64,000 nucleotides of DNA from positions 1,488,001 through 1,552,000 of the forward strand of contig NC_134028.1 in assembly GCF_964204645.1 (NCBI RefSeq). Reading direction: 5' to 3'. The notes beneath the pieces are model-generated. The model worked only from the letters and a program-made list of their open reading frames with translations. It was not told where the DNA came from and did not search any database. The position numbers and the translations under genes were made by a program. The DNA is from Tubulanus polymorphus (lineage: Eukaryota > Nemertea > Palaeonemertea > Tubulaniformes > Tubulanidae). The first letter of the stretch is position 1, and the number at the start of each line of letters is the position of its first letter. Positions 9,635 to 60,064 of the stretch are shown piece after piece.

Positions 9635-10898
9635 TTAATCTCCCTCCGCCACTTGTGGAAGTCGAGCGAGTAGATTTTTCGAGTAAAGACCGAACTGAGA
9701 ATCGTCACTCGGTTCTTCATCGTGACGAGTCAACGAAGTTCGTCTCGAATGGCTGCTACCTTCGAACAATGTCAGTTGACTGACGCTCGCGATGCTATCT
9801 CTTTCTCGTGAAGGGAAATTATGTATAACAGTTCCAGTATTTTCATGTATTTCGTCCTCTGGTTTCACTTTTTTCGCCGATTTCTTTTTACATTTCACGA
9901 CCAAAATAACGATAGCGACAATAAGCAAAACACCTCCACATCCGGCGCAAACAGCTATTATAACAGTCTGTGTAGAATCTACATCTACAAATGATGGTAA
10001 ATAGATTTTATTCATTTTATTGATTCAAATGAGAATTCCGTTTCAAAATATCAAGATAATTGAGTGGAACCGTAGTTTGAAATGGAAAGGTAAATGAGTG
10101 GAAAAGAGAGAAGATACACGTAGAATTAGGGAGGGAGATGTTAGACAGATAACACATACCTTGGCCATTTTCGCAATGAGGCCCTTGGAATCCAGACAAA
10201 CAACTGCAACAGAACGTATGATATTAAATAATTCAGTAACTTGATTAGATTTTATTAAAAATCCTTCGATGTTTGCTATGAATATTTACCGGCATGTGTA
10301 TCCGCCTGCATTATCTAATATACATTCACCTCCATTCAAGCACTTCCAATTAGCACACGGGTCTTAAAAATAAAGTACAACACGTTATTTGAATTGCGAA
10401 GAGAAAGTAAAATTCGGGTATTCGCATTATTTTAAGGATTATGACAATGGGAGTTATTTTGTTCGTTACCGTTTTTACATTCTGTAGTGTTCGGATTCGG
10501 ACTCGTAAAACCGGTCTCACAGGTACATTGATAACTACCGGGTGTATTCTTACATACGCTACGTGGTAATTTACACCAGTTCAGGCATTCGTCAATATCT
10601 GAAATAAATATGATAATAATTTGACGTTGAAATAAATGCTTGACTCTTGCCAGGAGACGAAGTTAGACGGAATTTAACCAATCTATGTTGCCGGATCATA
10701 TGAATCAAAATCTTCATTAATTTTTATCGTAATGACAAAAGATACCTTGACATTGTGGAATTGTAGTGTTGTCAACTGTTTTATTGGTAACTGTGTCATA
10801 CCCGGGGAGACAGACGCATTCATAAGCCCCGTTAGTGTTTTTACACATTGTATCTGCTGAACAGTGGAACGTACTCGGCGAGCCACATTCATTGAAAT
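9635..10898 (-). CDS. mucin: last EGF domains, transmembrane helix and cytoplasmic tail
   Basis: Exons 10746..10898 ([13 protein letters not shown]), 10470..10598 (DIDECLNWC), 10290..10362 with 10160..10203 ([14 protein letters not shown], then GFQGPHCEN) encode three EGF domains. The last exon, 9635..9984, has a hydrophobic helix ([20 protein letters not shown], then ILVV) followed by a basic stop-transfer stretch ([11 protein letters not shown]) and a tail of about 80 residues rich in Ser, Arg and acidic residues, ending VAEGD. The tail holds R-x-S/T sites but no signalling motif that I recognise. Confidence 0.87.
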
Positions 10899-13800: not shown

Positions 13801-16800
13801 TTCTTCACAAATATTTGGCGTCTCAACACATTCATCAATATCTATAGAAAAAATATGTTTTTTTGCGATCTCTTTTTTACGGAATCCCTTTCTGACGTGG
13901 TTTTATACAAACGTACGTACCATAACACTTTATCCCATCGCCACGATGACTATCAGGGCACTGGCCACACTTAGCTGTCCCGTTAACTACTGTACAGGAA
14001 ACGCCTTTGAAACACCGTTTCGGTTCTACCATGCAGGGATCTATTTCACAATGTTCTCCACCCCATCCTCCAGCACAGTCACATGTAGCTACATAGAATC
14101 GATCTGAAAATATCAATTGGTGTATTCATTTCAATGGATATATGCTTTTTATCTTTAGATATATACAGTAGACTTCGCTTAAGTCGGATGTTTTGGGATT
14201 GTAAAAATGTTTCGACTTGAGTGATATCCGAGTTGAATGTTATGTATTTCATATATAGTGTCACAAAAAATGTTTGAAAATACATCTGAGTTGAACAGTA
14301 ATCGCCGAGTTGATCAGATAAGACTTGGGCGGAGTCTAGTGAAAAAAACATTGTTTTCGTATTGTAATGCATATAGCAGACCTGGTCGAGTTTCACGGTT
14401 AGAATTGCCATAATCGCACGTTCCATTGTTGCGGCAGTCACAGTATTTGATTTCCGGTTGATAGGTCGAGGAAGCGCCCAGGTTATCAATGGCCACCACG
14501 TCTATCGTTATCGGTACGTCGTTAGTTTTCAATATCGTCAGCTCGTTGTTCTTCAAAGTCACCTCCGATGTGACATTTCCGTCGAGTATTAACGATATCG
14601 ACTGATTTTCATTCGGATCAGTCACCTCTAATTGAATAGTTACTGTTACATTCGGCTTTAATTCGATCACCTTAAGCGTCGTATTTTTGAAGGTCGGAGG
14701 GAAATTTCCTGTTCCAACAAAAGAAAATACATGAATATGATTGTAATCGGTGTATTACGTATTTATACAACGTCTTCAAATTACCCAGTTCCTCCATTTG
14801 TTTCTGGAAATTATTTTCGGATGATGAGGCGGAACTACCAGCTTTTGGCGAAGCCATTTGTGCCGAGTCGTACATACATGCCATGTAGTTAGAACTACCC
14901 GTACAAGTCTATATAGAATACAGTAAAAAGTAACAGATACTCATCGTCTACTTAAACCTTTGAATGATGTTGATAATGTGAAGTGAGTTCGGTAATATTT
15001 TCAATCAAATGGTTGCTTACAGCGTTAGATGAACGAAGTAATTCGCTGTTGTTGTGAAATAATTCTAGAAGTTTATCTTCATATTCATCCAGGAAAAGCG
15101 GTTTGAAGTTGGCATCATAATATTCGTCAAATGCCTTTGGCAAATCAGTAAATAATGAATCAGAAATTTGTTTTATACGCCCTGAAATGTATAAAATATG
15201 CAGTTTTTCAAGTTCTTTTATTCTTGTAGTCCTGAATACAAAGGCTAAGAAGTGGAAGATGTAACTGTACGTACAAGAGGTACCGAAATCGAATAGTTGT
15301 CTTTCAGTACTGGAAGCTGGCAATGTTTGCCCGTCTGATTTTCTAAAATCATCGGCCTTATCTCCATTCCAGAAGCCGAGGAGACCTCGCACATGACCCT
15401 GGTACTGACGAGGTGCGCTTACACCTATTGTCAACAGTTTGTAGCCAAGAATCACCTAGGTTTCAAAGAAACATTAGGAGTTAGTTGTAATAGTTGTGAC
15501 GTAACGGTCAGGCTCCGGTTAGCTGGCTTTCTTTTTACACATTTTTGGTAAACTGCAACTACTTTACATACCTCAACAGAAAAACCATTCTCAAAAGCTG
15601 CTACAATAGTTTCATTCTCAGTTTTTTCCAAGCTGACCTTGTTATAGTCGGTTGAATTGGTAGTCATTTCATCTAGCGTCATTTTTATGGTGGAATTGAT
15701 CGTAACTTCCATACTCATTCGATTCGCAGATAACATTACCTGAATTGTGTCAGAGTCATTCGATTTCATCGCAAAACCCGTAAATATAGTCGCTTCTACT
15801 GTATTATTTCCATCGGTAGATGCCTTCTCTAAAAGTGTCTGTATGACGAATTTAGAATCGGCAACTTTGTTGTCGTTGCCGATATCTGACTGGGTCGTGT
15901 TTGATGTGATGACCAGATCCGCTTGTTTAGGAGACAGATCGAACGTCTCTAGCATTACATACTGACCGATGCCATTGAAAGTATAATGCACGCCATCCAA
16001 AGTTCTGATATGGGGATCTCCGAGGGCCCAGCCTGAAATTATACGGATTACATTCTTAGATGAACACAATTTTCACAGACCTATAATGAACATACGTATG
16101 GGCCTACATGATGTAAATAAAGAGCTTTGAGATTGTTTCTTAATTCAAAGCGTTTTTAAGAAATAAATAACAATTATTATAATTATAATGAGTACATTTT
16201 GTAATGGATATCATTCACTAACCTTCAATTGGCGGCTCGTATTTTTCACAAGTCGTGACACGACGTAATGAATGGTACAAATCACAATTAGAACTCTTGA
16301 TACAACAATCCATTTGAGCTTTTCTATCTCGGCGGTATGAGAATATCATAGATCCGGAGTATGGTGCACTTGTAATCAGTGAAGCTAAAGTTTCATTACC
16401 ATTTATCCATTTATGTAGATAACAACAGGATTCTCGCCTGTAGAAATATCGAATCTTCCTCCTACCGGTATTTTCGCTGTATGAGTCCAGTGCTATAAAT
16501 CTGCTGAACCTACTGATGAAGCAGAATCGATAAGAATAATCTCCTTCCGAGTCTCTTCCCATCCAATACCACGAATACCAAGAGAAACGTCGGTCACGGC
16601 GAGCTTGCCAGAACGAACACGGACACGTATCAGGTGAATCAAACCTCGCCAGTATTTCAGACATTTCTCTTTCATCTTCGTACCATTCATTACAGCGTAC
16701 CGTATACTCGTCGAACCCAGATGTATCAGCGCTTACTTTATACAGCCATTGACCTATCACACCTATAAAGGAATAGTTCTCACATAAGGTATCTTAAGGT

Positions 16801-19800
16801 ATGATTTTCATCTTCGGGTATATCACAGAGCATTCATTTTGATCGTGTAGAGAGCTAGATAGGTTGGGCTTGTCATCATAGTAGGCGAGTAGGCACATCT
16901 AAAATCTGAATGCTCAACTGGTTTGGATTATAGAAGTGTTATGTAAGGAAATGGCAGTTCCAAAAATGTAAAAACATAATTGACTCAATCATCAAAGTGT
17001 GATATATGATTATACCTGTGTTACCGGTAACCTTGTCAATATCTAACGCTTCTGGCGTGAGCGACATACTATTCTCGTGATAGACCTCATAACCAGTGTA
17101 TGATTTATCCGCGTAACCGATCGCTATCTGTCTCCAATATTTATCAACGTCCAGATTTATCTGACCAGGCTGATAGTTGAACAGAGAAAACGTGTGGTTT
17201 TTATCGGCGATCAGTATAGTTTGAAACGATGCGTCCTGAAATGACATATTGGTTATAAACCTATGATTTGACGAAATTCGGAACCAAACTTTCAGATTTT
17301 GTTTCATCTTTACAAAAGCCTCAACTGAGTTTCTCAAGGAGTTTTCTGAGTTTTACATATTTCAAAACGTTAAGCTAATGATTACCTGGAGTTACTAAAC
17401 TTAAATATTTTCAGGTTTTCAGGAAAGGCTATCCAAAACGATTGAAAACAAAAAGAAAAATCTATTACCTCAATGTCCTTGTAGTATTCGGAAGGATATG
17501 GAATTCCGTTATTCCAGTTCACGATAAAAACCCACCTTAAAAGAAATAGATGAGAAATATGTCAGAATCATGAATATATTTGCAGTACCGCGTGTCTAAC
17601 TGATCAGAAATATTGCAATCAACATTTATCAGTGCTGAGCAACGACTTGGTGAGCAGAAACATTTGCTCTCATGTCATACATACCTAGGTTCAAAATTCT
17701 TGAAGTCTGACGATTCATCTTGTGACACATCTTGACCGTGGCTCCTCACAATGTTCTGGGCTGCATCGTAAACGGCGTGGTAATCGGGTCGATTCTTGTA
17801 GTAAACATCGCGATACCTTTTGTAATAACTGGAGAAATAGTAAGAGCAATAAGTTACAGTCGAATTCCTGCTGCTGTATGGAAAATCTAAATCGGTCCAG
17901 AACGGCGCCACTAATCCCATCTTCAAGTTAAAATCTTCAAACGATACAGGTTTACTCGTGCCTCTCATACGACGGAGATTGTCCCCAAATACAATGAAGC
18001 CGTTCGTATTGACCTGTGAAATGAGAATAGATACATAGATATTATAGCGATTATGAAATGTACACATAGATAAGCGCAAATTTCTTTACAATTATTGATT
18101 CTTTGTTGATTTTGCAGATTTCTCAAATGAACATATTACAAATGAATATATTACTTTCCCGTTAAAAGACGTATCTTACCCGAAGGTATCTGTGGGTTTT
18201 GTATCCTAGTTTCACCGACGGAACGTAGTAACGCCACGAGAACCTATCATCACCTTTTAGGCGGCGATAGTAGCGACATTCCGGAAATAAGATCTTCTCT
18301 GAAAACAAGAACAACAAATCGTCGTAATCAAGCCTGTTGACATGTAGTAGACTGATGCTTGACATAGTGACTGATTCGGTATTTAGAAGTTAAAAGATAT
18401 ATTTCTTCTATTGGATCCTCTACTACCACTTTGGACAGGTACCATACCCAAGCGACTTCGAGTCAATCAAACCTAGCAGTTACATGACCGCTAGCTGGGT
18501 CAGTTAACTTTCTTTGCGGGCAAACGTTAGCAATAATTGCGGCATCGAGGCCAGTGAAATGAAGTTCTTACTGTTGCAAGTATTCGGGGGTTTTCCATCT
18601 CCCTCATAGCCAGCTTTACAGGTACATGTGTAGCTCCCTATTGTATTTTGGCACACGGAATTTCCATCGCAGGCGTTTATTCTATCACACTCGTTCACAT
18701 CTGAAGTAATAATAAAGAAAAGTTATTCGGCTAAATGACTACATTATAAGTGAAACTTTCAACATTGGCAGTTCCCTGGCTTTCACTGAGCGGATATGCT
18801 TGAATAGTTATTCGAAGTAATCTCACTTACCTGTACAACTAGTTTCAGGGTCAGAACCGTAGTAACCGTCATTACATCTACATTCATACGACCCAGGTGT
18901 ATTAATACAATGAGCATTTACAGCACATTGGTTCAATGTTGGGTCTGCACATTCATCTCGATCTGCAAAGGCAAATTTCATAGATCGAACTGTTTTGAAT
19001 AGTTTTTCCAGAGACATAAGGCGGTTTCTTGCCATTCATTACTTGTTTTCAAAGTTTTGAATGGCACATATATTATGGTGTAGGTTTAAGGTAACCTATG
19101 CTTGTTATTGGTCTGGACGAAAGGTTTTGGACGACATAAACATCATTCTAAAGGTGGAAGATTAAGCTGTACCAATGAAACGAACATGAAAAAAATCTGT
19201 AGGAGAATGTTAACATTTCGAATCAAATCCTTGCGCCATTTTGAAATAAAAATTGAGTCGAAAGGTCAGAATCCTCAGAAGTTTTTCTTCAATTGTGGAT
19301 TACATCCATCAATTGGATTAGAAAGTGACTTATACACATATATGTATAAAAAAACCAAGTGACCGTTTGTGTCTCAACTTTGTATTCAAATCAACTCGAA
19401 ACCAAGCAGACTCTCGCGAGTCCTGGACTAAACCCCAATGAACAATGTGATCTGTGCGCTGGCCACAAATGCACACAGATCACACTACACTACCCATTAC
19501 ACACTCCATTACCCACAGCTTTCATATATCCATCCAAATATTTAGTGGCTTTCTTCCTGGGTCTTACTCGAGATATAGATGCAAAAACTCACACCATGAC
19601 CATTGCGTAAATCGTAAACTGATTTTTCTAATGTCGAACCATGGACTCTAAAACGTTTAACTCTAATCGTTTTACAGTCCATGAGTGAACCGACTGTTAC
19701 ACTGTCGACCGCCCGAACAATTCTTCATCAAACAACATCATAATGATGCATGATTCCGCCTTACCGTAAACTTTAGTGCTATCGCATTGCACATCATGCC

Positions 19801-22800
19801 CATCTAGAAGACATTGGCCGTTGGGCTGACGGACTGCTTTCATGAAAGTCTCTTCTATATCCGACAGCGTAGGTAGCAAAGCCGGATTAACTCTTGTTTC
19901 ATCGAATAACAGCGCCATATGAACCAATACACTTGACTTACTGTAATCAAGATATTCATAGTTGCAAAAACGAATTTCGAGGTTTATTCCGAGTTTGTTA
20001 ATTTGGAATATACTGGTTTTATCTGTTAAAACTAATTTCAAGTTCACTTTATAGAGATGTCCCTAGTACGATTCCCGTAGTATTGGCCCTGAAATATGTT
20101 ATCTCCATTTCCATTTATAAATTATTCACATGAAAATTATAATGAGACAAAAAAGTAAAAAAATCAAAGTGCTGTCAAAAATGGGATGATTTGTTCTTTG
20201 ATACACGTTTTCAGTATACACAAACGATTTAGAATATCTAAATCATTGATAAATTTCACATGAGTCCAAGATGTATATGTAAATCGGATTTCTTATAATG
20301 ATATTACTCTACCTAAACATTGTAACCAAAGCCGCTTCGAAACCTAAAGCTCTCATTTCCGCTTGATAATATGCTTTCACCTAAAAAAAATAATCAATAA
20401 CTTAAGAGAAGGTTTAATCTTCATTATTCAAAACCATTTCTTGATTTGAGATACGTACAGCTTTTTCCAGTTCCAACTTTAACTTGATACTTTCAGTAGT
20501 ATTGAGATTTGCGTATTGGACAATCCACCCCAGATCTAAGGTAAACTGTAGAGTCAATGACGTACGTACTGTAATAAATATCAAATAATAAGAACAGAGC
20601 ATCACTAGAATACAAAATTTATTTGACTAAAACTTGTATAACTTGTACGAGAGGGTTAGTTGAAAAATGTCTATACTGAGGTCAGTATGCTTTTTCAACT
20701 TATCTTGGTGCTGGCTCGAAACGAGTTGTTTCTGAAAGGATTAAAATCCAAAAGGTTTGTACCTTTCTTGCACGAGTTGACACCATCACCGGCGTACATA
20801 TCGCGACATTGACATATCACCCCGAGTTGACTCGATATACAGTTAGCATCACTGTGGCATTGATTACAGTTTCCATGCACTGGAATACATAACAAATATC
20901 ACGAGAATCAATGGTACCAATCTATATGTGAAAACAAACTAATCTTAATTAGGTAATTACTAAAGGGTATCTCATACCTGATTGACTCGTAGTTGACACG
21001 TCAGCTGATGTAGTGGGTCTAACAGTTGATGATGAAGTAGACGAATCCGTCGGTGATGTCGTCTCGGTGCTCGCCGAGCTCGATGCGTCTATCATCGTTG
21101 AGCTGACAGTCAAGGATGAAGTAGACGAATCCGTTGGTGAGGTCGTCTCGGTGCTCACCGAGGTCGATGTGTCTACCGTAGTGGAGGTGTCAATCGAGGA
21201 TGAAGTAGACGAATCCGTTGGTGAGGTCGTCTCGGTGCTCGCCGAGGTCGATGTGTCTACCGTAGTGGAGGTGTCAATCGAGGATGAAGTAGACGAATCC
21301 GTTGGTGAGGTCGTCTCGGTTCTCGCCGAGGTCGATGTGTCTACCGTAGTGGAGGTGACACTAGAGGATGAAGTAGACGAATCCGTTGGTGATGTCGTCT
21401 CGGTGCTCGCCGAGGTCGATGCGTCTACCGTAGTTGAGGTGACACTAGAGGATGAAGTAGACGAATCCGTTGGTGATGTCGTCTCGGTGCTCGCCGAGGT
21501 CGATGCGTCTACCGTAGTTGAGGTGACACTAGAGGATGAAGTAGACGAATCCGTTGGTGATGTCGTCTCGGTTCTCGCCGAGGTCGATGTGTCTACCGTA
21601 GTTGAGGTGACACTAGAGGATGAAGTAGACGAATCCGTCGGTGAGGTCGTCTCGGTGCTCACCGAGGTCGATGTGTCTACTGTAGTGGAGCTGACACTAA
21701 AGGATGAAGTAGACGAATCCGTCGGTGAGGTCGTCTCGGTGCTTGCGGATGTCGATGTGTCTACCGTAGTGGAGCTGACACTCGAGGACGAAGCAGAATT
21801 TGAGGTATCTACGGTAGTAGTAGTTGCTTCTTCGGTAGTCGTAGAATCAGAATGTGTAACATTAACATCACACATTATAGGCCCGAGTGAACCCAGAGAA
21901 CACCCATTTGCCGATTTGGTGTAGTTGGAAATGGCAGAAGTAATATCATCCATAGATGGAACAATGTTTGAGAATGCTACTTGCATTCCAACTATAACAC
22001 TGCCTTGTCTGAAAAATGAACACACATGCGATGATGATATACGTCTGGTGATACGTCTCATGTATATCTCATTCAGCTGAAATGTATTTTACCGAATGAC
22101 AATTTCAATATAAGACCATTAATGTAACGGTTCAAGGGGATATTTGTACGGTTCAAGGGGGTATTTGTTTCCTTTGCGGTTCTGCGAATAACATACCTCA
22201 ATTCTTTTACAGTTCCTCCGATATAGCTCCACCCTGGGTATGAGTTGAAAATGACGCTAATCTGTAAAATAGAAGTTTTATCATATCATACACAGTTGTT
22301 TCAATTTTGCAATGTTTTAAATTCAAAGAGATGAAATAGAAGTTTAAAATGCATTTTATAATTCGTTTTTTTACCTCGTAAAGTAAGTTTGCGACCATTG
22401 ATTTATGCTTATATGAGTTTGGATCCTGAAGACTCGCCGACCAAGACGATAGAATCGATAATCGAAGATCGAAGATTTCATCGGCTATATAAAGAATTAG
22501 ATATTGAGCAAAAATAAAAATGACAACTTTCTGTGAATGTCGATCTTCGTCAGTAAATAGAGCCAAATTATCGCAACAGACCTTGAGAACACGAGGATAT
22601 ACCGTCTCCGTAGAAAGTAGGTTTGCAAATGCATTGATCGTCACCGTTGCATTGAGCATCTTTGTGGCACATCGAGCATGCTACAACGAAAGTGAAATAA
22701 ACATGCGATCAGTGAGTTTTCAGAGTCAACCCGCAAGCAGCATTACAGCACGTTTAGAGAGATTTTAAAATCATGAAATGAAAGATTATGATCATATACA

Positions 22801-25800
22801 AACCAGATACTTGAGAACATGAATCAAGAGGAATAGAAAATGTCGCCTGACTGATATTTGGTATATACATCCGTAGAAGTTTCGGTATTAGTTCAAACAT
22901 CGGGCACGAACTACTTTCACCATTCATAACACAGCCAACGAGTTTACCGCCAAAATTGGTTTTATTTCTTTAATATGGAAATATCAAAATAATTTATGAA
23001 TCACAAAGAAGACAGAGAAAATTACGAGACATTTGGTTAATTCTACTCACAGAAGACGCATTATCGGACAAGTAAGGTTCATGAGGTTCTGTATGGTAGT
23101 AAGCGTTAGCGAAGGGTTCGGTATCGTAGGATTAGTGATCATATTTATGACTGCCGGATCGTTTAGAATATCTGACAGTCCCCTGACGAGATGATATAGC
23201 ATCGGAACGAGTTCTGCCGCTGATGACGATGACATCGTGCAATTGAAGACTTCGATAATTTCTCTCACAAAACACACCCAACGTCCTATATGACGGAAAA
23301 TGTATCGATGATATTTGATAACAGTAGAGTTGATACGGTAAATGACGAAGCCAATTCATAACATGAATTACCTGACCACACCGTATCCGTGCACATATTC
23401 TTGATTAGTTGAGACATTTTGAATTTAGGAGGTACCAGGTAGAAAACACCGTTTGCCTTTGCGCTACACGAGTCGATCGTGTCTATGAGATCCTTTGTAA
23501 AGTAGCTAGAAAAATATTACGCATTGCTGTGAATAATTATGAAACAAATTACATTTTATCAATACACATTGTACTTTTCTTGAAAATAAGGATCGTCGAA
23601 ATGCAGAGGTTAATTTTTCACTGTATTAGCTACCTTTGAGACGATGAACACAGCTCCGATTCAAATTTCTGTGGGTCTGCTATCAATTGTTTCGCGTGGA
23701 ATTTGAAACTAGCAACTTTTCCTCTCATTTTACCCAATATACAAGATAGGAACTTCCGGTTGGCATTCATTAACGACGTTAGGTTTAAATCAGTAACTAC
23801 AATATCAGAATGTACATTATTTAGCCGGTTTAACCATGGATTGGTATTATATATACATGTATATAAAGACCGTTCACCCAGAATTAATTTGCATTTACAG
23901 AAATTAAATCAATTGTAAGTTAGTTTGCTAATGAAGGGGTAGAGAACTTACACATAGTAGGTTCAGGTACAGCCATACACGACATTTCGGTAAATGGTTT
24001 GATAATATCAGGTGTGACCATTTTGAATATTTGAAGCTCTCTAGATGGTATCGGAACGATATCGCTAGTTAAACACGTACTTTCGTTCATCACTTTGTAA
24101 AAGCAGTTTGGTAACTTTGCAGTCATATTGAACAAAGCTACGCTAAAAAGAGTTATGAATGATAACAATTAATTGATCGTGAACTTCAGGGTAAGGATCA
24201 AAATCCATCCGATCGATGTATTATGTATAGTATAACGTACCTCCACGACGAATCACACAGTTGTTTATATGCTTTTACTCCCTCAGCAACTAGTCTCAAC
24301 AATTGCGACGTGTTTGTAGATGGTTTACCAGTAATGATCGACGGTCCTATGATCGATGCAGCATTCGCCGATAGATTCCCGAATTCAACCAAGAAGTTGT
24401 AACCGGCTCGAGGCATGGCGCATTTCAAAACTTTTGGTACAAACTCCCACAAACAATTTAACGAAACATTTGCGTCTACGTGGATATGAAATGGTGAAAA
24501 CGTGATGTTTTACAAGGTATACTTATTTCGTCTATTCTTATCGGTAAAATAAAACGATATGAATAATTTACCTCTTCTGCTGCACCAATTGTTGTATAGT
24601 GACTTGATCGACCGTATTTCATTGGTTATATTGGCTGAACAATTTCTCACACACGGAATTATACTGTCAAACATGATGAGGATGTCACGTCTTGAAATAG
24701 TTATAGAAATAAAAACGATTCATGATTAGCTAAAAAAACTTCAATTAAACACACTTCACTCCAAATTGTTAAAAAAGGCTTTCATTTATACTGACCTTTT
24801 ATCGGAGCAAAGAGTCCTATTTAAGGTTGCACCGTCGGCAGCTTGTATTATCGGAATTATTGTCTGTACCCAGCCGGAAATACGTCGATTGATACATGAA
24901 ATTGCTCTGCCCATTTCGCAAGGTCCTGTTGCATTTTGTGATTCCGAAAAAGAAACGTAGCAGTCATTACTTTAATTTAGGCATGTATATAATTACCGTT
25001 GTTAAAACGTCATAAGATACATCTCTTTCGATCTCTAATCGCCTAAACACAAAATAGAGACGGATAAAATGGATCTCATACCTGATGTGTCAGGTTGTCC
25101 AGTCATTCCACTAGTAGTTGCGTGAGAAGATGAAGATACCGTTGATGAATCGGTTGGAGATGATTCCGTTGGTGAGGTCATCTCGGTGCTCGCCGAGGTC
25201 GATGTGTCTACCGTAGTTGAGGTGTCAGTCGAGGATGAAGTAGACGAATCCGTTGGTGAGGTCGTCTCGGTGCTCGCCGAGGTCGATGTGTCTACCGTAG
25301 TGGAGCTGACACTCGAGGATGAAGTAGACGAATCCGTTGGTGAGGTCGTTTCGGTGCTCGCCGAGGTCGATGTGTCTACTGTAGTGGAGCTGACACTCGA
25401 GGATGAAGTAGACGAATCCGTTGGTGATGTCGTCTCGGTGCTCGCCGAGGTCGATGTGTCTACCGTAGTGGATGTGTCAGTCGAGGACGAAGTAGACGAA
25501 TCCGTCGGTGAGGTCGTCTCGGTGCTCGCCGAGGTCGATGTGTCTACCGTAGTGGATGTGTCAGTCGAGGACGAAGTAGACGAATCCGTTGGTGATGTCG
25601 TTTCGGTGCTCGCCGAGGTCGATGTGTCTACCGTAGTGGAGCTGACACTAAAGGATGAAGTAGACGAATCCGTCGGTGAGGTCGTCTCGGTGCTCGCCGA
25701 GGTCGATGTGTCTACCGTAGTGGATGTGTCAGTCGAGGACGAAGTAGACGAATCCGTCGGTGAGGTCGTCTCGGTGCTTGCGGATGTCGATGTGTCTACC

Positions 25801-28800
25801 GTAGTGGAGCTGACACTCGAGGATGAAGTAGACGAATCCGTCGGTGAGGTCGTCTCGGTGCTCGCCGAGGTCGATGTGTCTACCGTAGTGGAGCTGACAC
25901 TAAAGGATGAAGTAGACGAATCCGTCGGTGAGGTCGTCTCGGTGCTCGCCGAGGTCGATGTGTCTACCGTAGTTGAGGTGACACTAGAGGATGAAGTAGA
26001 CGAATCCGTTGGTGAGGTCGTCTCGGTGCTCACCGAGGTCGATGTGTCTACTGTAGTGGAGCTGACACTAAAGGATGAAGTAGACGAATCCGTCGGTGAG
26101 GTCGTCTCGGTGCTTGCGGATGTCGATGTGTCTACCGTAGTGGAGCTGACACTCGAGGACGAAGCAGAATTTGAAGTATCTACGGTAGTAGTAGTTGCTT
26201 CTTCGGTAGTCGTAGAATCAGAATGTGTAACATTAACATCACACATTATAGGCCCGAGTGAACCCAGAGAACACCCATTTGCCGATTTGGTGTAGTTGGA
26301 AATGGCAGAAGTAATATCATCCATAGATGGAACAATATTTGAGAATGCTACTTCCATTCCAACTATAACACTGCCTTGTCTGAAAAATGAACACACATGC
26401 GATGATGATATACGTCTGGTGATACGTCTAATGTATATCTCATTCAGATGAAATGTATTTTACCGAATGACAATTTCAATATAAGACAATTAATGCAACG
26501 GTTCAATGGGATATTTGTTTCCTTTGCGGTTCTGCGAATAACATACCTCAATTCTTTTACAGTTCCTCCGATATAGCTCCACCCTGGGTATGAGTTGAAA
26601 ATGACGCTAATCTGTAAAATAGAAGTTTTATCATATCATACACAGTTGTTTCAATTTTGCAATGTTTTAAATTCAAAGAGATGAAATAGAAGTTTAAAAT
26701 GCATTTTATAATTCGTTTTTTTACCTCGTAAAGTAAGTTTGCGACCATTGATTTATGCTTATTGGAGTTTGGATCCTGAAGACTCGCCGACCAAGACGAT
26801 AGAATCGATAATTGAAGATCGAAGACTTCATCGGCTATGTATAGAATTAGATATTGAGCAATAAGAAATTTATAACTTTCTGTGAATGTCGATCTTCGTC
26901 AGTAAATAAGGCCAAATTATCGCAACAGACCTTGAGAACACGAAGATATACCGTCTCCGTAGAAAGTAGGTTTGCAAATGCATTGATCGTCACCGTTGCA
27001 TTGAGCATCTTTGTGGCACATCGAGCATGCTACAACGAAAGTGAAATAAACATGCGATAAGTGAGTTTTCAGAGTCAACCCGCAAGCAGCATTACAGCAC
27101 GTTTAGAGAGATTTTAAAATCATGAAATGAAAGATTATGATGATATACAAACCAGATACTTGAGAACATGAATCAAGAGGAATAGAAAATGTCGCCTGAC
27201 TGATATTTGGTATATACATCCGTAGAAGTTTCGGTATTAGTTCAAACATCGGGCACGAACTACTTTCACCATTCATAACACAGCCAACGAGTTTACCGCC
27301 AAAATTGGTTTTATTTCTTTAATATGGAAATATCAAAATAATTTATGAATCACAAAGAAGACAGAGAAAATTACGAGACATTTGGTTAATTCTACTCACA
27401 GAAGACGCATTATCGGACAAGTAAGGTTCATGAGGTTCTGTATGGTAGTAAGCGTTAGCGAAGGGTTCGGTATCGTAGGATTAGTGATCATATTTATGAC
27501 TGCCGGATCGTTTAGAATTTCTGATATTCCCCTGACGAGATGATATAGCATCGGAACGAGTTCTGCCGCTGATGACGATGACATCGTGCAATTGAAGACT
27601 TCGATAATTTCTTTCACAAAACACACCCAACGTCCTATATGACGGAAAATGTATCGATGATATTTGAGAACAGTAGAGTTGATACGGTAAATGACGAAGC
27701 CAATTCATAACATGAATTACCTGACCACACCGTATCCGTGCACATATTCTTGATTAGTTGAGATATTTTGAATTTAGGAGGTACCAGGTAGAAAACACCG
27801 TTTGCCTTTGCGCTACACGAGTCGATCGTGTCTATGAGATCCTTTGTAAAGTAGCTAGAAAAAAATTACGCATTGCTGTGAATAATTATGAAAGAAATTA
27901 CATTTTATCAATACACATTGTACTTTTCTTGAAAATAAGGATCGTCGAAATGCAGAGGTTAATTTTCCACTGTATTAGCTACCTTTGAGACGATGAACAC
28001 AGCTCCGATTCAAATTTCTGTGGGTCTGCTATCAATTGTTTCGCGTGGAATTTGAAACTAGCAACTTTTCCTCTCATTTTACCCAATATACAAGATAGGA
28101 ACTTCCGGTTGGCATTCATTAACGACGTGAGGTTTAAATCAGTAACTACAATATCAGAATGTACATTTTTTAGCCGGTTTAACCATGGATTGGTATTATA
28201 TATACATGTATATAAAGACCGTTCACCCAGAATTAATTTGCATTTACAGAAATAAAATCAATTGTAAGTTAGTTTGCTAATGAAGGGGTGGAGAACTTAC
28301 ACATAGTAGGTTCAGGTACAGCCATACACGACATTTCGGTAAATGGTTTGATAATATCAGGTGTGACCATTTTGAATATTTGAAGCTCTCTAGATGGTAT
28401 CGGAACGATATCGCTAGTTAAACACGTACTTTCGTTCATCACTTTGTAAAAGCAGTTTGGTAACTTTGCAGTCATATTGAACAAAGCTACGCTAAAAAGA
28501 GTTATGAATGATAACAATTAATTGATTGTGAACTTCAGGGTAAGGATCAAAATCCATCCGATCGATGTATTATGTATGGTATAACGTACCTCCACGACGA
28601 ATCACACAGTTGTTTATATGCTTTTACTCCCTCAGCAACTAGTCTCAACAATTGCGACGTGTTTGTAGATGGATTACCAGTAATGATCGACGGTCCTATG
28701 ATCGATGCAGCATTCGCCGATAGATTCCCGAATTCAACCAAGAAGTTGTAACCGGCTCGAGGCATGGCGCATTTCAAAACTTTTGGTACAAACTCCCACA

Positions 28801-31800
28801 AACAGTTTAACGAAACATTTGCGTCTACGTGGATATGAAATGGTGAAAACGTGATGTTTTACAAGGTATACTTATTTCGTCTATTCTTATCGGTAAAATA
28901 AAACGATATGAATAAATTACCTCTTCTGCTGCACCAATTGTTGTATAGTGACTTTATTGACCGTATTTCATTGGTTATATTGGCTGAACAATTTCTCACA
29001 CACGGAATTATACTGTCAAACATGATGAGGATGTCACGTCTTGGAATAGTCATAGAAATAAAAACGATTCATGATTAGCTGAACAAACTTCAATTAAACA
29101 CACTTCACTCCAAATCGATAAAAAGGATTTCATTTATACTGACCTTTTATCGGAGCAAAGAGTCCTATTTAAGGTTGCACCGTCGGCAGCTTGTATTATC
29201 GGAATTATTGTCTGTACCCAGCTGGCAATACGTCGATTGATACATGAAATTGCTCTGCCCATTTCGCAAGGTCCTGTTGCATTTTGTGATTCCGAAAAAG
29301 AAACGTAGCAGTCATTACTTTAATTTAGGCATGTATATAATTACCGTTGTTAAAACGTCATAAGATACATCCCTTTCGATCTCTAATCGCCTAAACACAA
29401 AACAGAGACGGATAAAATGGATCTCATACCTGATGTGTCAGGTTGTCCAGTCATTCCACTAGTAGTTGCGTGAGAAGATGAAGATACCGTTGATGAATCG
29501 GTTGGAGATGATTCCGTTGGTGAGGTCATCTCGGTGCTCGCCGAGGTCGATGTGTCTACCGTAGTTGAGGTGACAGTCGAGGATGAAGTAGACGAATCCG
29601 TTGGTGAGGTCGTCTCGGTGCTCGACGAGGTTGATGTGTCTACCATAGTGGAGCTGACACTAGATGATGAAGTAGACGAATCCGTTGGTGATGTCGTCTC
29701 GGTGCTTGCTGATGTCGATGTGTCTACTGTAGTGGAGCTGACACTCGAGGACGAAGCAGAATTTGAGGTATCTACGGTAGTAGTAGTTGCTTCTTCGGTA
29801 GTCGTAGAATCAGAATGTGTAACATTAACATCACACATTATAGGCCCGAGTGAACCCAGAGAACACCCATTTGCCGATTTGGTGTAGTTGGAAATGGCAG
29901 AAGTAATATCATCCATTGATGGAACGTTGTTTGAGAATGCTACTTCCATTCCAACTATAACACTGCCTTGTCTGAAAAATGAACACACATGCGATGATGA
30001 TATAAGTCTGGTGATACGTCTCATGTATATCTCATTCAGCTGAAATGTATTTTACCGAATGACAATTTCAATATAAGACAATTAATGTAACGGTTCAAGG
30101 GGATATTTGTACGGTTCAAGGGGGTATTTGTTTCCTTTGCGGTTCTGCGAATAACATACCTCAATTCTTTTACAGTTCCTCCGATATAGTTCCACCCTGG
30201 GTATGAGTTGAATATGACACTAATCTGTAAAATAGAAGTTTTATCATATCATACACAGTTGTTTCAATTTTGCAATGTTTTAAAATCAAAGAGATGAAAT
30301 AGAAGTTTAAAATGCATTTTATAATTCATTTTTTGACCTCGTAAAGTAAGTTTGCGACCATTGATTTATGCTTATTGGAGTTTGGATCCTGAAGACTCGC
30401 CGACCAAGACGATAGAATCGATAATTGAAGATCGAAGATTTCATCGGCTATATAAAGAATTAGATATTGAGCAAAAATAAAAATAACAACTTTCTGTGAA
30501 TGTCGATCTTCGTCAGTAAATAGAGCCAAATTATCGCAACAGACCTTGAGAACACGAAGATATACCGTCTCCGTAGAAAGTAGGTTTGCAAATGCATTGA
30601 TCGTCACCGTTGCATTGAGCATCTTTGTGGCACATCGAGCATGCTACAACGAAAGTGAAATAAACATGCGATAAGTGAGTTTTCAGAGTCAACCCGCAAG
30701 CAGCATTACAGCACGTTTAGAGAGATTTTAAAATCATGAAATGAAAGATTATGATGATATACAAACCAGATACTTGAGAACATGAATCAAGAGGAATAGA
30801 AAATGTCGCCTGACTGATATTTGGTATATACATCCGTAGAAGTTTCGGTATTAGTTCAAACATCGGGCACGAACTACTTTCACCATTCATAACACAGCCA
30901 ACGAGTTTACCGCCAAAATTGGTTTTATTTCTTTAATATGGAAATATCAAAATAATTTATGAATCACAAAGAAGACAGAGAAAATTACGAGACATTTGGT
31001 TAATTCTACTCACAGAAGACGCATTATCGGACAAGTAAGGTTCATGAGGTTCTGTATGGTAGTAAGCGTTAGCGAAGGGTTCGGTATCGTAGGATTAGTG
31101 ATCATATTTATGACTGCCGGATCGTTTAGAATATCTGACATTCCCCTGACGAGATGATATAGCATCGGAACGAGTTCTGCCGCTGATGACGATGACATCG
31201 TGCAATTGAAGACTTCGATAATTTCTTTCACAAAACACACCCAACGTCCTATATGACGACAAAATGTATCGGTGATATTTGAGAACAGTAGAGTTGATAC
31301 GGTAAATGACGAAGCCAATTCATAACATGAATTACCTGACCACACCGTATCCGTGCACATATTCTTGATTAGTTGAGACATTTTGAATTTAGGAGGTACC
31401 AGGTAGAAAACACCGTTCGCCTTTGCGCTACACGAGTCGATCGTGTCTATGAGATCCTTTGTAAAGTAGCTAGAAAAATATTACGCATTGCTGTGAATAA
31501 TTATGAAACAAATTACATTTTATCAATACACATTGTACTTTTCTTGAAAATAAGGATCGTCGAAATGCAGAGGTTAATTTTTCACTGTATTAGCTACCTT
31601 TGAGACGATGAACACAGCTCCGATTCAAATTTCTGTGGGTCTGCTATCAATTGTTTCGCGTGGAATTTGAAACTAGCAACTTTTCCTCTCATTTTACCCA
31701 ATATACAAGATAGGAACTCCCGGTTGGCATTCATCAACGACGTTAGGTTTAAATCAGTAACTACAATATCAGAATGTACATTTTTTAGCCGGTTTAACCA

Positions 31801-34800
31801 TGGATTGGTATTATATATACATGTATATAAAGACCGTTCACCCAGAATTAATTTGCATTTACAGAAATTAAATCAATTGTAAGTGAGGTTGCTAATGAAG
31901 GGGTAGAGAACTTACACATAGTAGGTTCAGGTACAGCCATACACGACATTTCGGTAAATGGTTTGATAATATCAGGTGTGACCATTTTGAATATTTGAAG
32001 CTCTCTAGATGGTATCGGAACGATATCGCTAGTTAAACACGTACTTTCGTTCATCACTTTGTAAAAGCAGTTTGGTAACTTTGCAGTCATATTGAACAAA
32101 GCTACGCTAAAAAGAGTTATGAATGATAACAATTAATTGATTGTGAACTTCAGGGTAAGGATCAAAATCCATCCGATCGATGTATTATGTATGGTATAAC
32201 GTACCTCCACGACGAATCACACAGTTGTTTATATGCTTTTACTCCCTCAGCAACTAGTCTCAACAATTGCGACGTGTTTGTAGATGGATTACCAGTAATG
32301 ATCGACGGTCCTATGATCGATGCAGCATTCGCCGATAGATTCCCGAATTCAACCAAGAAGTTGTAACCGGCTCGAGGCATGGCGCATTTCAAAACTTTTG
32401 GTACAAACTCCCACAAACAGTTTAACGAAACATTTGCGTCTACATGGATATGAAATGATGAAAACGTGATGTTTTACAGCATATTCTTATTTCGTCTATT
32501 CTTATCGGTAAAATAAAACGATATGAATAAATTACCTCTTCTGCTGCACCAATTGTTGTATAGTGAATTGATCGACCGTATTTCATTGGTTATATTGGCT
32601 GAACAATTTCTCACACACGGAATTATACTGTCAAACATGATGAGGATGTCACGTCTTGAAATAGTCATAGAAATAAAAACGATTCATAATTAGCTAAAAA
32701 AACTTCAATTAAACACACTTCACTCCAAATCGATAAAAAAAGGATTTCATTTATACTGACCTTTTATCGGAGCAAAGAGTCCTATTTAAGGTTGCACCGT
32801 CGGCAGCTTGTATTATCGGAATTATTGTCTGTACCCAGCTGGCAATACGTCGATTGATACATGAAATTGCGCTGCCCATTTCGCAAGGTCCTGTTGCATT
32901 TTGTACATCTAGAACATAACAAAATATATGCATTTTAAGGCTGTCTTCAATAGCTATTTTGCTACTCCTTCAGCGATCCTATACTTACATGAACATTCTG
33001 TTGGAATTTGTAGAGCGATATTTTGTAATGAATTGATATCGGCACCCATGAGTGGGACTATCAGATTCATTATCTTTCGACCGACGTCCATAAATGGACA
33101 AGGTCCTTTTCCTGCATTCAACACGCAATTCACCAGCCTCCCGGTAACGTTTGCTTTATTCCTGGAAAATTTTTTAGGAAAGTAAAATCATTGCACAAAT
33201 CTACTGGATAGTAATGACATTCGTTGAAACGAGAAAGGTTCGTACATAATGTTGATCATCGGACACATCTTTGACATGATTTTTGCATTAAGGTGTGAAA
33301 TAGTTGAGTAATTTCCATTGAGGATTGCTGTAACCACGTTGTCATTCGATATCTCATCAGAAATAATTTTTAGTAATTCATATAAAACCGGAACGAGTTC
33401 CCCCGCGGAAGACGATATCGTGCAGTTGTATATTCTAATCATTTCCGTCAATATACACACCCAACGTCCTATATAGCGAATAAAAAATCAGTTATCAGTT
33501 ATCAGATATCAGTTATTAGTTATTAGGTATTAACTACGTGATACGAGACAGATCGATAGACATCTCCGGATCAGGGACTACGCTGAATATCTCAACGTTT
33601 CTCAATCTACGAGGGTGACTCAAGGACTGACTCCAGCTTCTCGTGATAAAGCGAATTTTCGTGGATCCCGGCTTACGTCTAACCCAGAGTTGTCAGAACA
33701 ACCCTCAAAAATGATTCTCACATAGTGTTCATTATAGATATCTAATCTAATTGCGGATTTTACGGTAAATTATAGTACGTTACGCAGGACACTTTTTCGA
33801 ATTTGTCCTGCTGCACTAAATTCAATAATATTTCCATAACTTAGTATACTTATTTTACTTTTGATTGTAGTTTTGTAAACTCTGCGAATAATTGCAAATA
33901 ATTCCTTCAATTAATTTAAAAGGAAAAATTACCTGAACGATTTGTCGCAGTGCACATGCTGTCGATCACATCGACAAGCTTTAATTTAGGCGGAATTAAA
34001 GGGCATATTTTATTTGTTTCAACGCTGCATTTATCGAATTCTGCCAGGAGATTCTTTACCACCGAACTGAAAAGGTATAGTTGAGAAAATGATTCGGTTG
34101 TTATGTACTCATCAATGAAATTGATGATTTTTTTATAAGAAATACATACTTTTGGTTGATACAAAATAGTTCGTCGGTTGAGTCGGGATTGGCGGCAAGA
34201 ACTTCTGCAAGTTTTTTTAAGCTGGCTAAGTTCAAGCTGACATAATCAACAATGCATGATAACTGCTTTTTTGCAGCATTTAGCATACATTTAGGATCGT
34301 TATTACGCACTGTAACAAATGAAAACATACAAACAGAAATGAGAAATAAACATGTTATGGAATTCACGGAATTCATTTATAAACATTTCCCCATACCTGG
34401 TACGACGATCTTGATTTCTAATGTATAGCTATTAAAGATTATGAAGTTATATAGACAACTTAGAGCGGAATATGATAATTCTATTGAGATTGAATTGAGT
34501 GAATCCCCGAGTTAAAATAGTAGTAAATAAAAACCAGGTTTTTTAAAAGAGTCATCTATATTGTTGTTCATAGACATTCGTGGTCATAGACATGTTCGTC
34601 AGGTGTGATTTCCATTATTTTTTGTAAAATAATCTAGGGCATACGAATGGCAAGCCACGGGAAAACGTACGTAGAGTTGGTTCGGGAATAGCCATGCACG
34701 CGAGTTCAGTAACCGGTTTGAAAGCTTCTGGAGGGAATCCGTCTAGAAGCTGTGCTGCAGCTGGTGGTATAAAATGGTTTATACAAGTGGATTCGTTCAT

Positions 34801-37800
34801 TGCTATGTGAAGACATCGCGGTAGATTGGCTATCATATCAAACGTGTTTATGCTGAAATAGAAATACACGTTGTCACAAATAACTGCAAAACAGCGACAG
34901 CTAGTTTCTGACTACACATTCGAATTATCAATAGTTGATTCGAAACTTGTAGAAAATATACTCTTGATCACTGGGATTTTAAGCTTTAAGAACGTTTTTG
35001 TTAAAGAATCATTCTGCAGTTTCCAGTTTCTAGGCGCCATTTTGTGGTGGTCCTTCGAGGTCCCCATTTTTGTGAAATCTTGAATTGAACATCAATTAGC
35101 ACAGTAGTCCCTTACTTGATATCATATTTCTAAAACTATTCTACCTCATCATTGACGAACTACAAAATCTATTCGCTCCGGTCATCATGTCACCCAATGC
35201 TGACAGTAGTGCAGTCTGGTTAAAAGGCGTATACGAAGCAGAGAACGGCGAAGAAAAATCCATGAAATCCAACGTCATATTCAACCCTAAATAACCAACT
35301 GGGACCAAGAATGAATATCCATCTGGTGGCGTGGCACAGCGTAATGTCGTCGGGACCAACTTCCACAGACAGTTTAACATTTCCGATTTTCCTTCAATCA
35401 ATCAGAATCGTTTAGATAAGATACTTTTTTCGTGAACTCATAATGATACTTTCGTATTAGGTGAAATTCACCTACCTGGCCTTCCACAAAAAGAATCATA
35501 AAGCGCTTTTATTTTCACCATTTCCATCCTTGTATCAGGCGCACAGTTCAGCAAAGAATTTGTCACCTCGTCAAAAATGCCATATACCGCAGACCTACGT
35601 AGATGTTGAAATAATGATGGGTTATAGTTAAAAAATGTAGAATTCCGACACTAATTCGATCGCACCAAACAGAATCTACCTGCTTTCATTACAAAACTTT
35701 GTGTTGAATGTTGTTTTATCGTTTGTCGAATCGATGATGGGAATGAGCGTATTAATCCAAGACTCGTAATGTAGGTAGATAGAATCGATGGCGTTATTTA
35801 CGGAACAGGGTCCGGTAACCTCCACTGAATCACACACAACAGGCCCAACTGAAGCCATCGAGCAGTTTGACGAGTCTGATTTCGTAATCAGGTTTTCGAC
35901 AGTTGTTTTGACTTGTTGCTCGGTTGGATATGTACCGGTCGGGCTCGATCCGAAAAAGACTTCTAACGACAAATAAACATAACCATTCTTCGGCATCCTA
36001 AAAGAAGAAGTTGAGCTTTCTATTTTCATTAACTGCGAGAATGTTTTTAGTCACATTTATTACGTACCCTTGAGTAGCGCCACCTACTACTTTAACCGAG
36101 TTGTATATTGCAGACAACGCTGAGTATAGCTGAAAATTATATACCGTATTCGTTTTATCTCCAGCATTTTTCATCCACAGTTTGTGAGCATGATTGGATA
36201 TTTTGAATACTAAACTATGTTTATGTACGAACCTTTTTTCGGATAAGCATCGAGTACAGACTGTGAGCGTTCCATAAACTTCCGCCGAATGCTACATGAA
36301 CCATCATGGATTTTGCGGCTAAAGGCATAATAATGGACAATTACATAACGGGAATCGATCGATGTCTTCAAATTGACCTAGTTATACTTTTTTATTCTAA
36401 ATTCATCATTTGACAGTATAAGGCCTACGTAGATCATGTTTCCTTTTCTCCCCATAGATTAAGACAATATGAATTGTTATGTCTGAATGCATGGATCTAT
36501 GATAACATAACAGTACTATACGTTCTTTCATTCTATTTGTGAATTTGAATTTTACAATAGATGATGTGTGCCCTGCTGGATGCAAATAAATAGTGACATA
36601 GAGAAGAACGACGTTATAAAAGGCTTCAACCATACTATACCTTTTGTGCAGTTCGTGAACCCATCACCGTAGGCACCGCTTGGACATTTGCATTCAAACG
36701 CAAAACCGGATACGCCAGCGATACTTTGAGTGCTGCATTTTGTGTTTTTCATACAATTCGAACAGTTAGAAACTGAAAAATCGAGCCGGCAAAATTAGCC
36801 ATAATGTATTCATAGATTATCTTCTTGGAAACCGGTAGAATACATACTGTGAACTGAAGCCGAGCCACATTTTACATGGACGGCTCCTATTTGACAATCT
36901 GATGATCGATTCTTATAGGAATTTATCAAAGTTTCTTCAACGTCCACCAATGATACCTTGCCATGGCCGAGGTTGAACATGATAATGATGGTCACCGGTT
37001 TAGGCGTTACCCAGCTGAAAATATAAGAGGAAAAGGAAAAGATGCAGAAGCATTAGTTGTGACATGGCCGGCGAAAAATCTTAAGCTGTACATCTTAGCG
37101 ACGTTGTTCTAAATACTTACCCAAATGAATCTACTTTGGCTTCAATGAATCTATTTGGGAAGGCAGCCGAGTATATTTTGGTTAACTATTTTGAGAGAGA
37201 AAATTGTAAGCAACTTATAAATTGATCGATTATTTCCATCCAACCAATATTCATTTCATCGAACAATCTTATGCACGTAAGAATCATTATTTATACAGAC
37301 ATATGTATAACCAACCTACCGCCGTTTTTATCGATTGCGACCAATTTCCATGTTTGTTGATGTAAGAGTTCTTCAAGGTGGTTGTGACGACGAGTTTATG
37401 GTAATAATCAGCTAGAAAAAGAACAAAAAAATCAACAATCTATCAAATCTTCAAATAAAGCAAATTGTACGGTATTTACCGGTATTTTGTATACCCTACG
37501 CTTCTATTGTAGTACTGTATACATACAATACTGAGTACCGGTATACAAATCTTTTACATTACAGGATCATGAGATGATCATGATCATTCCATGCCGATAT
37601 TTTCGATAGCTTACAATAACATAAAGTGAAACCCCGATATACCGGGGTTGACTGTATATCCTATATGATGTCATAGTGTTCCCGTTACTGCCAAAACCTA
37701 ATGTCAAACTCACTGCCGGTCATGAATTATTCCATCATTATTTTTAGAAATCCTATATAACGTCTGGTTTTAGTCATTGCAGTGGGCATCTTAGTAATTG

Positions 37801-41088: not shown

Positions 41089-41310
41089 ATAAGATAAAAT
41101 CCCACTATTTACAGATTAAAAGAATTTAAAAACCAGAATTTATTTATTAAATCTAAAATATATATAAGACACGACGTTTCGATCTCACCCTAGAGATCAT
41201 CGTCAGGTGTGACGTCGTGAAACGTCGTGTCTTTTAAATATTTTAGATTTAATAAATAAATTCTGGTTTTTAAATTCTTTTAATCTGTAAATAGTGGGAT
41301 TTTATCTTAT
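41089..41310. mobile_element. hairpin MITE with TA target duplication
   Basis: A 222-base near-perfect palindrome: the left arm starts ATAAGATAAAATCCCACTAT and the right arm ends with its reverse complement (ATAGTGGGATTTTATCTTAT); arms are about 90-95 bases. TA dinucleotides at 41087-41088 and 41311-41312 flank it, as expected for Tc1/mariner-type insertion. The short centre contains a second inverted repeat, AAGACACGACGTTTC against GAAACGTCGTGTCTT. No coding capacity. Confidence 0.8.

Positions 41311-42136: not shown

Positions 42137-42201
<65 letters not shown>
42137..42201. repeat. TA dinucleotide microsatellite
   Basis: About 32 uninterrupted TA units. The Tyr-Ile repeat frame across it on the minus strand is an artefact. 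Confidence 0.97.
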
Positions 42202-42208
<7 letters not shown>

Positions 42209-58959: not shown

Positions 58960-60064
58960 ATGACGGTTTGTAGAGAATTTCTAACAATCGGGACAATGAA
59001 CGGGGTAAGTTACTCATTTTCGCCGAGCATCCAACGAGGAAAAAGGATACATATTATGCTTGTGATCGTTTTACTGATCGGATTTTTGTCGTCTTACATC
59101 GATGCTTCTGCCGCCGGACCTTACCTGAATATGTTTGCTGGCCAACAAATTCCACCGGATCCTTGTCAAGACGAGAACGGAAATCCACGAAGATGCATTC
59201 CTGATTTCGTGAACGCGGCTTTCGGCAAGTTGGTAAAAGCTTCGAGCACCTGCGGTAAACCGATAACCCGTTACTGTAAAACCTCTTCCAACGATAAAGA
59301 CGGGAAAAAGACAACTCAGTGTTATATTTGCGACGATACGCACCCGAAACGGAAACACCCAGCTATGTATCTGACTGATTTAAATAACCCGAATAATCTT
59401 ACATGTTGGATTTCAAAACCTGACGTCAAAAACCAAAACATAACTCTGACTCTGTCGTTGGAGAAGAAATTCGAGCTGACCTATGTTAGTCTACAGTTTT
59501 GTCACACCAGACCGGATTCGATGTCAATCTACAAGAGTATGGATCACGGAAAATCGTGGGTCGAATTTCAGTATTACTCGTCGCAGTGTAAGAAAATGTT
59601 CACCAAAAATCCGAAAGCTATCATTACGAAAGCGAACGAACAAGAGGCATTGTGCACTGATGCCTATACCAACATCGACCCCTTGAGCGGCACCAGGGTG
59701 GCGTTTAGTACCCTCGAAGGTCGTCCGTCAGCTTACGACTTCGAAAATAGTCCCGTGCTGCAGGACTGGGTTACGGCCACCGATATCAAAGTCGTATTTA
59801 ACCGACTGTATCCGTACGAAATCGAAAAGGAATTCGACGAAAAGGAAGAGAACGACAGCTATTTTTTCTCGCTGTCCGATTTTGCGGTCGGCGGTCGATG
59901 TAAATGTAACGGCCATGCATCGCGGTGTATCAAAGACCGCGAGGGTAAGCTCGTCTGCGATTGTAAGCATAATACGGCTGGGGTCGACTGCGAACGATGT
60001 AAACCATTCCACTACGATCGGCCGTGGGCGCGGGCAACGTCTACCAAAGCCAACGAATGTGTGG
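58960..60064 (+). CDS. netrin, first coding exon (laminin-N domain and first EGF-Lam repeat)
   Basis: Secreted axon-guidance and adhesion protein that binds DCC/neogenin and UNC5 receptors. The exon encodes a signal peptide ([19 protein letters not shown]), the laminin N-terminal domain VI with netrin hallmarks ([89 protein letters not shown]) and the first laminin-type EGF repeat up to ANECV, ending at donor GTAAGT (60065) in phase 1. The ATG at 59056 gives the cleanest signal peptide; in-frame ATGs at 58960 and 58996 would add 32 or 20 residues. The remaining EGF repeats and the C345C/NTR domain must lie beyond 64000. The open frame continues 47 bases into the intron and should not be used. 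Confidence 0.95.

Follow-up and report, generated by a model that had tools for sequence, protein, structure and literature searches.

What are the building blocks of the cysteine-rich helical (CRH) modules that recur in a mucin-like gene of Tubulanus polymorphus? The gene is read from the minus strand of a 64,000-nucleotide (nt) stretch of contig NC_134028.1, hereafter the window. An initial annotation, made from the letters of the window, had described an eight-exon module in four copies and read its exons as eight variants of one helical hairpin. Here, we find that intron phases and cysteine (Cys) positions favor a longer unit: the module is probably four tandem copies of one two-exon, six-Cys extracellular domain, for which we infer a disulfide pairing, a fold and a role as spacer or binding head. 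The domain is real and has no Pfam match here.

Results

On exon models without stops, all four modules consist of eight exons (E1 to E8): copy 0 (35824-32989), C (32908-30767), B (29291-27153) and A (24943-22804), all on the minus strand, and the eight-exon layout, the four copies and their positions thus hold as first described. Copy 0 encodes 460 amino acids (aa) and C, B and A encode 462 aa each, more than the 430-450 residues estimated initially; each exon does bear Cys, at two to three per exon rather than the one to three reported. The view that one copy is old and three are recent is confirmed as well. Copy 0, the old one, is 37% identical to C in amino acids and keeps 20 of 24 Cys columns, whereas A, B and C are recent duplicates, with few pairwise exon differences at synonymous (pS 0.010-0.017) and nonsynonymous sites (pN 0.007-0.009).

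The splice sites have GT donors and AG acceptors, with qualifications for E1 of copy 0, A and B. E1 of copy 0 is the tail of a longer exon (35997-35680) and has no acceptor of its own; by eye, this exon also holds a SEA-like end upstream of the module, and tested singly it gave no Pfam match. The E1 start first assigned in cassettes A and B (24943 and 29291) reads CGG, not the AG acceptor used in C. The acceptor in these two cassettes is likely the CAG 18 nt downstream, which keeps phase 1 and sets the starts at 24925 and 29273, and the duplication breakpoint probably lies at 24943-24925 and 29291-29273.

Does the module have an inner period? The seven inner introns follow phases 2-1-2-1-2-1-2 in all four modules, with odd exons ending in phase 2 and the even ones in phase 1; phase 1 also stands after E8 and before E1 (in C, and in A and B with the reassigned acceptor; copy 0 has no intron there). 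We defined units as U1 (E1+E2), U2 (E3+E4), U3 (E5+E6) and U4 (E7+E8), four per module and 16 in the gene. This register was chosen because of the intron phases, the start of the module at E1 and its end at E8, and the Cys losses described below. Eleven units were compared (three U1, two U2, three U3 and three U4), drawing also on a relative on contig C3 of the same genome; A and B were omitted as near-copies of C, and U2 of the contig-C3 gene because half of its E3 is uncertain. Unguided MAFFT alignment of the eleven produced six Cys columns, occupied in 11, 11, 10, 10, 10 and 9 of 11 units, and none of 300 homology-preserving shuffles, in which the columns of each unit family are permuted together, matched the observed count.

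The period was then compared directly by counting common Cys columns. Two-exon units share five, as do the three units without E1E2 (0/200 shuffles in either case), odd exons share three (0/200) and single exons share two (33/200). Because the two-exon count stands beyond the shuffles and the single-exon count does not, the period is two exons; taken together with the alternating phases, this leads us to read the module as four tandem two-exon, six-Cys domains. The spacing in U2-U4 is C1-x10-C2-x30..61-C3-x14..18-C4-x7..11-C5-x16..35-C6, with C1-x10-C2 in 8/8 of the U2, U3 and U4 sequences that have both Cys; U1 is shorter, with C1-x7-C2 in cassette C. The residues around C2 and C4 are also alike between units (1/1000 and 0/1000 shuffles; 10 unit sequences, U1 of copy 0 omitted).

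Could the primary unit nonetheless be the single exon, with eight variants of one helical hairpin, as the initial annotation had it? Two or three Cys stand in every exon, MAFFT placed 15 exon pieces in one alignment anchored by two invariant Cys, and the C2 context of odd exons resembles the C4 context of even exons (z 3.6, 0/1000 shuffles). However, the single-exon Cys columns remain within the shuffles, the C3 and C6 contexts are not alike (228/1000), phase and the position of the third Cys distinguish odd from even exons, and paired Cys losses tie an odd exon to the next even exon. We therefore give up the eight-hairpin description in favor of the two-exon unit and regard a single-exon primary unit as improbable; the C2/C4 likeness remains as a fainter sign of an earlier duplication that gave rise to odd and even exons.

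The paired losses are the following. U1 of copy 0 lacks C2 and C4, and U1 has all six Cys in C and, judged by position, in the contig-C3 gene. U3 of A, B and C lacks C1 and C5, both of which are present in U3 of copy 0 and of the contig-C3 gene. Each time one Cys of the odd exon and one of the even exon of the same unit are missing together, and the disulfides are therefore most likely C1-C5 and C2-C4, with C3-C6 predicted by elimination. The amphipathic helix-like stretches noted initially are borne out by the hydrophobic moment at 100 degrees, which is raised ahead of C2, C3, C4 and C6 (z 5.2, 3.0, 2.2 and 3.1; reached by 0, 4, 38 and 3 of 2000 shuffles, figures that overstate independence, as related copies were counted separately). 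At 170 degrees the moment is not raised in any of these segments. Nine six-Cys units entered this test (eight for the first segment), with U1 of copy 0, U3 of C and U2 of the contig-C3 gene omitted.

In window coordinates on the minus strand, copy 0 comprises E1 (35680..35824; first half of U1, lacking C2), E2 (35476..35594; lacking C4), E3 (35145..35391), E4 (34671..34852), E5 (34150..34309), E6 (33933..34066), E7 (33246..33468) and E8 (32989..33161). Cassette C comprises E1 (32761..32908; an alternative acceptor would give a start at 32890), E2 (32536..32654), E3 (32205..32439), E4 (31916..32106), E5 (31598..31760; lacking C1), E6 (31336..31469; lacking C5), E7 (31014..31248) and E8 (30767..30930). 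From E2 of copy 0 onward and throughout C, odd exons run from phase 1 to phase 2 and even exons from phase 2 to phase 1. The exons of cassette B are E1 (29144..29291; likely true start 29273), E2 (28921..29039), E3 (28590..28824), E4 (28301..28491), E5 (27983..28145), E6 (27721..27854), E7 (27400..27634) and E8 (27153..27316). Those of cassette A are E1 (24796..24943; likely true start 24925), E2 (24572..24690), E3 (24241..24475), E4 (23952..24142), E5 (23634..23796), E6 (23372..23505), E7 (23051..23285) and E8 (22804..22967). Module 0 ends at E8 with a phase-1 donor, and module C begins at E1 with a phase-1 acceptor; eight units therefore probably stand consecutively there.

Is the block confined to this gene? 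We searched the genome that the window comes from (267.8 Mb in 77 contigs) with a tool that scores the best candidates only, so that more loci may exist. With copy 0 the search returned 29 matches, of which 27 fell in the host gene, the other two being one real relative on contig C3 and one on contig C10 (L028, E 2.1; E, expect value), a short tandem repeat that was dropped as chance. Cassette C gave 32 matches (30 on contig C4, one on contig C3 and one on contig C8), and E3-E8 of the contig-C3 gene gave 11 (seven on contig C3, three in the window cassettes on contig C4 and one on contig C8). The six-Cys block thus occurs outside the host gene on contig C3 (U1-U4) and on contig C8 (U1-U2).

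The contig-C3 gene (L030, plus strand) opens with a signal-peptide-like exon, judged by eye and hydropathy, that ends near 3089 in phase 1, and continues with E1 (3618-3741), E2 (3891-4018), the first part of E3 (4643-4812), E4 (5659-5852), E5 (6189-6336), E6 (6673-6815), E7 (7650-7899) and E8 (8619-8821). Its phases equal those of the window for E1, E2 and E4-E8; E3 begins in phase 1 and is split by an extra intron, and no further exon was found for its second half, nor, by the criteria applied, any exon in the roughly 6 kb after E8. U1 of this gene is assigned to the family because of its position, phases and Cys pattern. No mucin parts were seen inside the block. Nearby on contig C3 are a glycosyltransferase family 11 frame (L033:1996-3132, E 3.5e-37) and several similar frames resembling G-protein-coupled receptors (GPCRs; L034), one of which was tested (7tm_1, E 8.7e-9).

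The contig-C8 locus (L046/L047, minus strand) holds an exon resembling E3 (E 1.8e-6 in 20 kb), a stretch resembling E4 that is broken across two reading frames and may be decayed or carry a sequence error, and, by eye, an E1-like exon; no convincing match to E5-E8 was found within 20 kb. A query taken from it returned 10 matches, three on contig C8, one on contig C3 and six in the window.

Several results weigh against reading the module as four tandem six-Cys domains. Even exons alone share two Cys columns (61/200 shuffles), and the shifted register E2E3/E4E5/E6E7 yields six (0/200), as good as the chosen one. The C3 and C6 contexts are not significantly alike between units (104/1000 and 56/1000), and when units are compared profile to profile, each with few sequences, five of six pairs fall within the shuffles, U2-U3 being the sole pair beyond them (0/100). 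MAFFT on one representative of each of the four units gives two common Cys columns, again within shuffles. U1 of the contig-C3 gene as query gave three matches, two of them to its own locus and one to a chance place, and none in the window; one of the three lies on contig C6 (L050, E 2.8). The predicted pairing is founded on two loss events. Lastly, AlphaFold2 models of U4 of copy 0 and U1 of A, both built on intron read-through translations, are all-helical and of too low a quality for use, with poor, uninformative predicted local distance difference test (pLDDT) values of 41 and 50.

Does the domain belong to a known family? In Pfam scans of the module and of the joined contig-C3 protein, every match with a printed score was below its cut-off, and neither Saposin, FAS1, GDNF nor any other Pfam domain exceeded it where scores were printed; the joined E3-E8 protein and U1 of the contig-C3 gene likewise reached no family cut-off. 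The 11 units scanned singly at E<=10 gave a lowest E of 0.0092 (DUF7428, 1/11 units); members 2-11 were judged by E, their bit scores not being printed. DUF7428 was not listed for the exact copy 0, and different units gave different weak matches. Searches of the Protein Data Bank (PDB) reached best E values of 0.33 (single approximate copy 0), 0.13 (module profile) and 0.74 (unit profile), IMG/VR and GTDB scans gave no relative, and among the titles and abstract starts listed from open-licence PMC there was, as weak evidence, no paper describing a module of this kind. With no significant match in Pfam or PDB, the initial opinion that the module cannot be assigned to a known family is upheld. 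The kinship with DUF19 considered at that time is not: PF01579 is absent at E<=10 from the Pfam matches of the module, the units and the contig-C3 protein.

A known helical Cys-rich family (DUF19-like, saposin, GDNF/GAS1 or DUF1397) might still have diverged beyond detection by single-sequence hidden Markov models, as the helix-like, Cys-rich and extracellular character of the units would allow. The contig-C3 protein has a chance-level DUF1397 match (E 1.4, 8.7 bits versus a cut-off of 25.7), the only trace among these named families in the Pfam scans, and the weak matches vary by member, the DUF7428 match being the best of them. We consider such a hidden membership unlikely.

Still less probable, and in our view very unlikely, is that the units are very remote members of the Frizzled (Fz)-like cysteine-rich domain (CRD) superfamily, perhaps binding lipids or sterols. 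The idea arises because of the disulfide order proposed above, C1-C5/C2-C4, with which the two paired losses are compatible. Disulfides I and II of the ROR2 CRD (PMC11219042), as we map them with an assumed Cys numbering, agree with this order. The units are also helical, and the C1-x7-C2 of U1 in cassette C recurs in 9/10 of the Fz CRDs of the T. polymorphus genome. However, an hhalign comparison with the ten Fz CRDs of this genome scored only 10.07, with 73/200 shuffles as good, and no match to PF01392 was listed for any of the 11 units at E<=10. The spacing after C3 differs too: C3-x8-C4-x6-C5 is found in 10/10 Fz CRDs, against C3-x14..18-C4 in U2-U4, and the units have at most six Cys, not ten.

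What surrounds the modules? Cassette C continues after E8 with an EGF-like exon (30545..30643, phase 1 at both ends; EGF_3 E 0.0024, 18.5 bits, below the cut-off of 28.5), a SEA domain in three exons (30338..30447, 30160..30224 and 29430..29971) and a mucin segment. The third SEA exon, with a GSVIV motif, also encodes the Ser/Thr-rich segment (133 aa, 66% Ser+Thr); its counterparts are 25082..26379 in cassette B (385 aa, 71%) and 20978..22008 in cassette A (296 aa, 69%), the latter with a CAG/GTATG donor at its end. These mucin exons contain 84-nt (28-codon) repeats. The SEA assignment beside the module was correct, since the spliced cassette-C domain matches PF01390 (E 2.9e-7, 31 bits versus a cut-off of 26.4); SEA-like exons scanned one at a time did not match SEA.

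Elsewhere in the host gene, on the same strand, are an EGF_CA match over the Pfam cut-off, a NIDO-like part (17678..18085; PF06119 E 9.3e-5, 22.9 bits, below the cut-off of 25, in one open frame), a VWD domain (15455..16072; PF00094 E 2.1e-6, 28.6 bits, cut-off 22.9) and, by eye, a hydrophobic transmembrane (TM)-like segment with a short basic stretch (9638..10024; no family over cut-off). An open reading frame (ORF) at 16793-16221 contains an AMOP-like Cys/Trp stretch by eye, and the unspliced frame gave no AMOP Pfam match. Overall, the host gene resembles a membrane mucin of the MUC4 type.

The remainder of the window contains a netrin-like start (58915-60108, plus strand; Laminin_N E 1.5e-75, then laminin EGF), a rhodopsin-type GPCR open frame (55558-56625, plus strand; 7tm_1 E 2.8e-10) and, by eye, receptor guanylate cyclase-like ORFs (49916-43970, minus strand), of which the catalytic domain at 44443-43970 was the sole one tested (E 1.6e-29). 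A TA dinucleotide run lies at 42141-42202 and a stretch that looks by eye like an inverted repeat at about 41115-41310.

Discussion

If the module is indeed four tandem domains, each unit would be an extracellular domain of about 83-150 residues with four amphipathic helix-like stretches and six Cys, encoded by two exons with phase-1 introns outside and a phase-2 intron inside. A block of four could be a globular spacer and binding head, held stiff by its disulfides. Placed between the Ser/Thr-rich mucin stalks and the SEA domains, it might lengthen and present the glycocalyx, and may bind a partner. The cassette of four units, EGF, SEA and mucin was triplicated recently. The contig-C3 block, directly after a signal-peptide-like start, may also act as a secreted protein outside the mucin; that no mucin parts are seen inside it speaks for a function independent of the mucin. 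For the block in general, we suggest that it serves outside the cell as a rigid spacer or as a binding head.

Is the block possibly only filler, a fast-evolving, ligand-free spacer kept for length and protease resistance? Copies that are only 37% identical with most Cys kept, and a cassette that expanded recently along with the mucin repeats, would fit such a role. The contig-C3 block, in which no mucin parts are seen, does not fit it as well, nor does the comparison of A, B and C, in which nonsynonymous sites differ by 0.7-0.9% and introns by 2.4-2.7%, although these counts are small. We hold the filler reading to be rather doubtful. Also tentative, and somewhat less likely than not, is the possibility that the two-exon units form a new extracellular family with its own four-helix, three-disulfide fold (C1-C5, C2-C4, C3-C6). 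Such a family would occur in two settings, as a secreted protein of four domains and as the repeated head of a giant membrane mucin, where it is being multiplied as a cassette with EGF, SEA and mucin repeats.

The non-repeat parts of mucins decide assembly and binding. Should the six-Cys domain prove real and widespread, animal mucins would gain a newly named building block. The paired Cys losses provide a testable disulfide map, and the contig-C3 gene, being compact, would suit expression and structural studies. The modules of the three cassettes differ by about 1-3%, and these cassettes illustrate how a mucin gene lengthens through whole-cassette duplication.

How does this compare with known systems? 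DUF19/T20D4.11-like proteins are helical, Cys-rich and secreted; their family, PF01579, differs in being unlisted in any Pfam scan. Elicitins (PF00964) are all-helical with disulfide order C1-C5, C2-C4, C3-C6; their spacing is quite unlike that of the units, and PF00964 was not listed in the Pfam unit scan. Frizzled-like CRDs are, like the units, extracellular and helical, with C1-C5 and C2-C4 pairing as predicted here, and differ from these two-exon repeats in profile, Cys number and spacings. At the level of the whole gene, MUC4-type membrane mucins have a layout of NIDO-AMOP-VWD plus TM, some cnidarian members also having SEA (PMC9080433). The host gene shares with MUC4-type mucins EGF-like exons, SEA, Ser/Thr repeats, NIDO-like, VWD and TM-like parts, on one strand and in that order. 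It differs from them in having no AMOP match in Pfam, and in carrying 16 uncatalogued six-Cys domains together with three recent cassettes of module, EGF, SEA and mucin.

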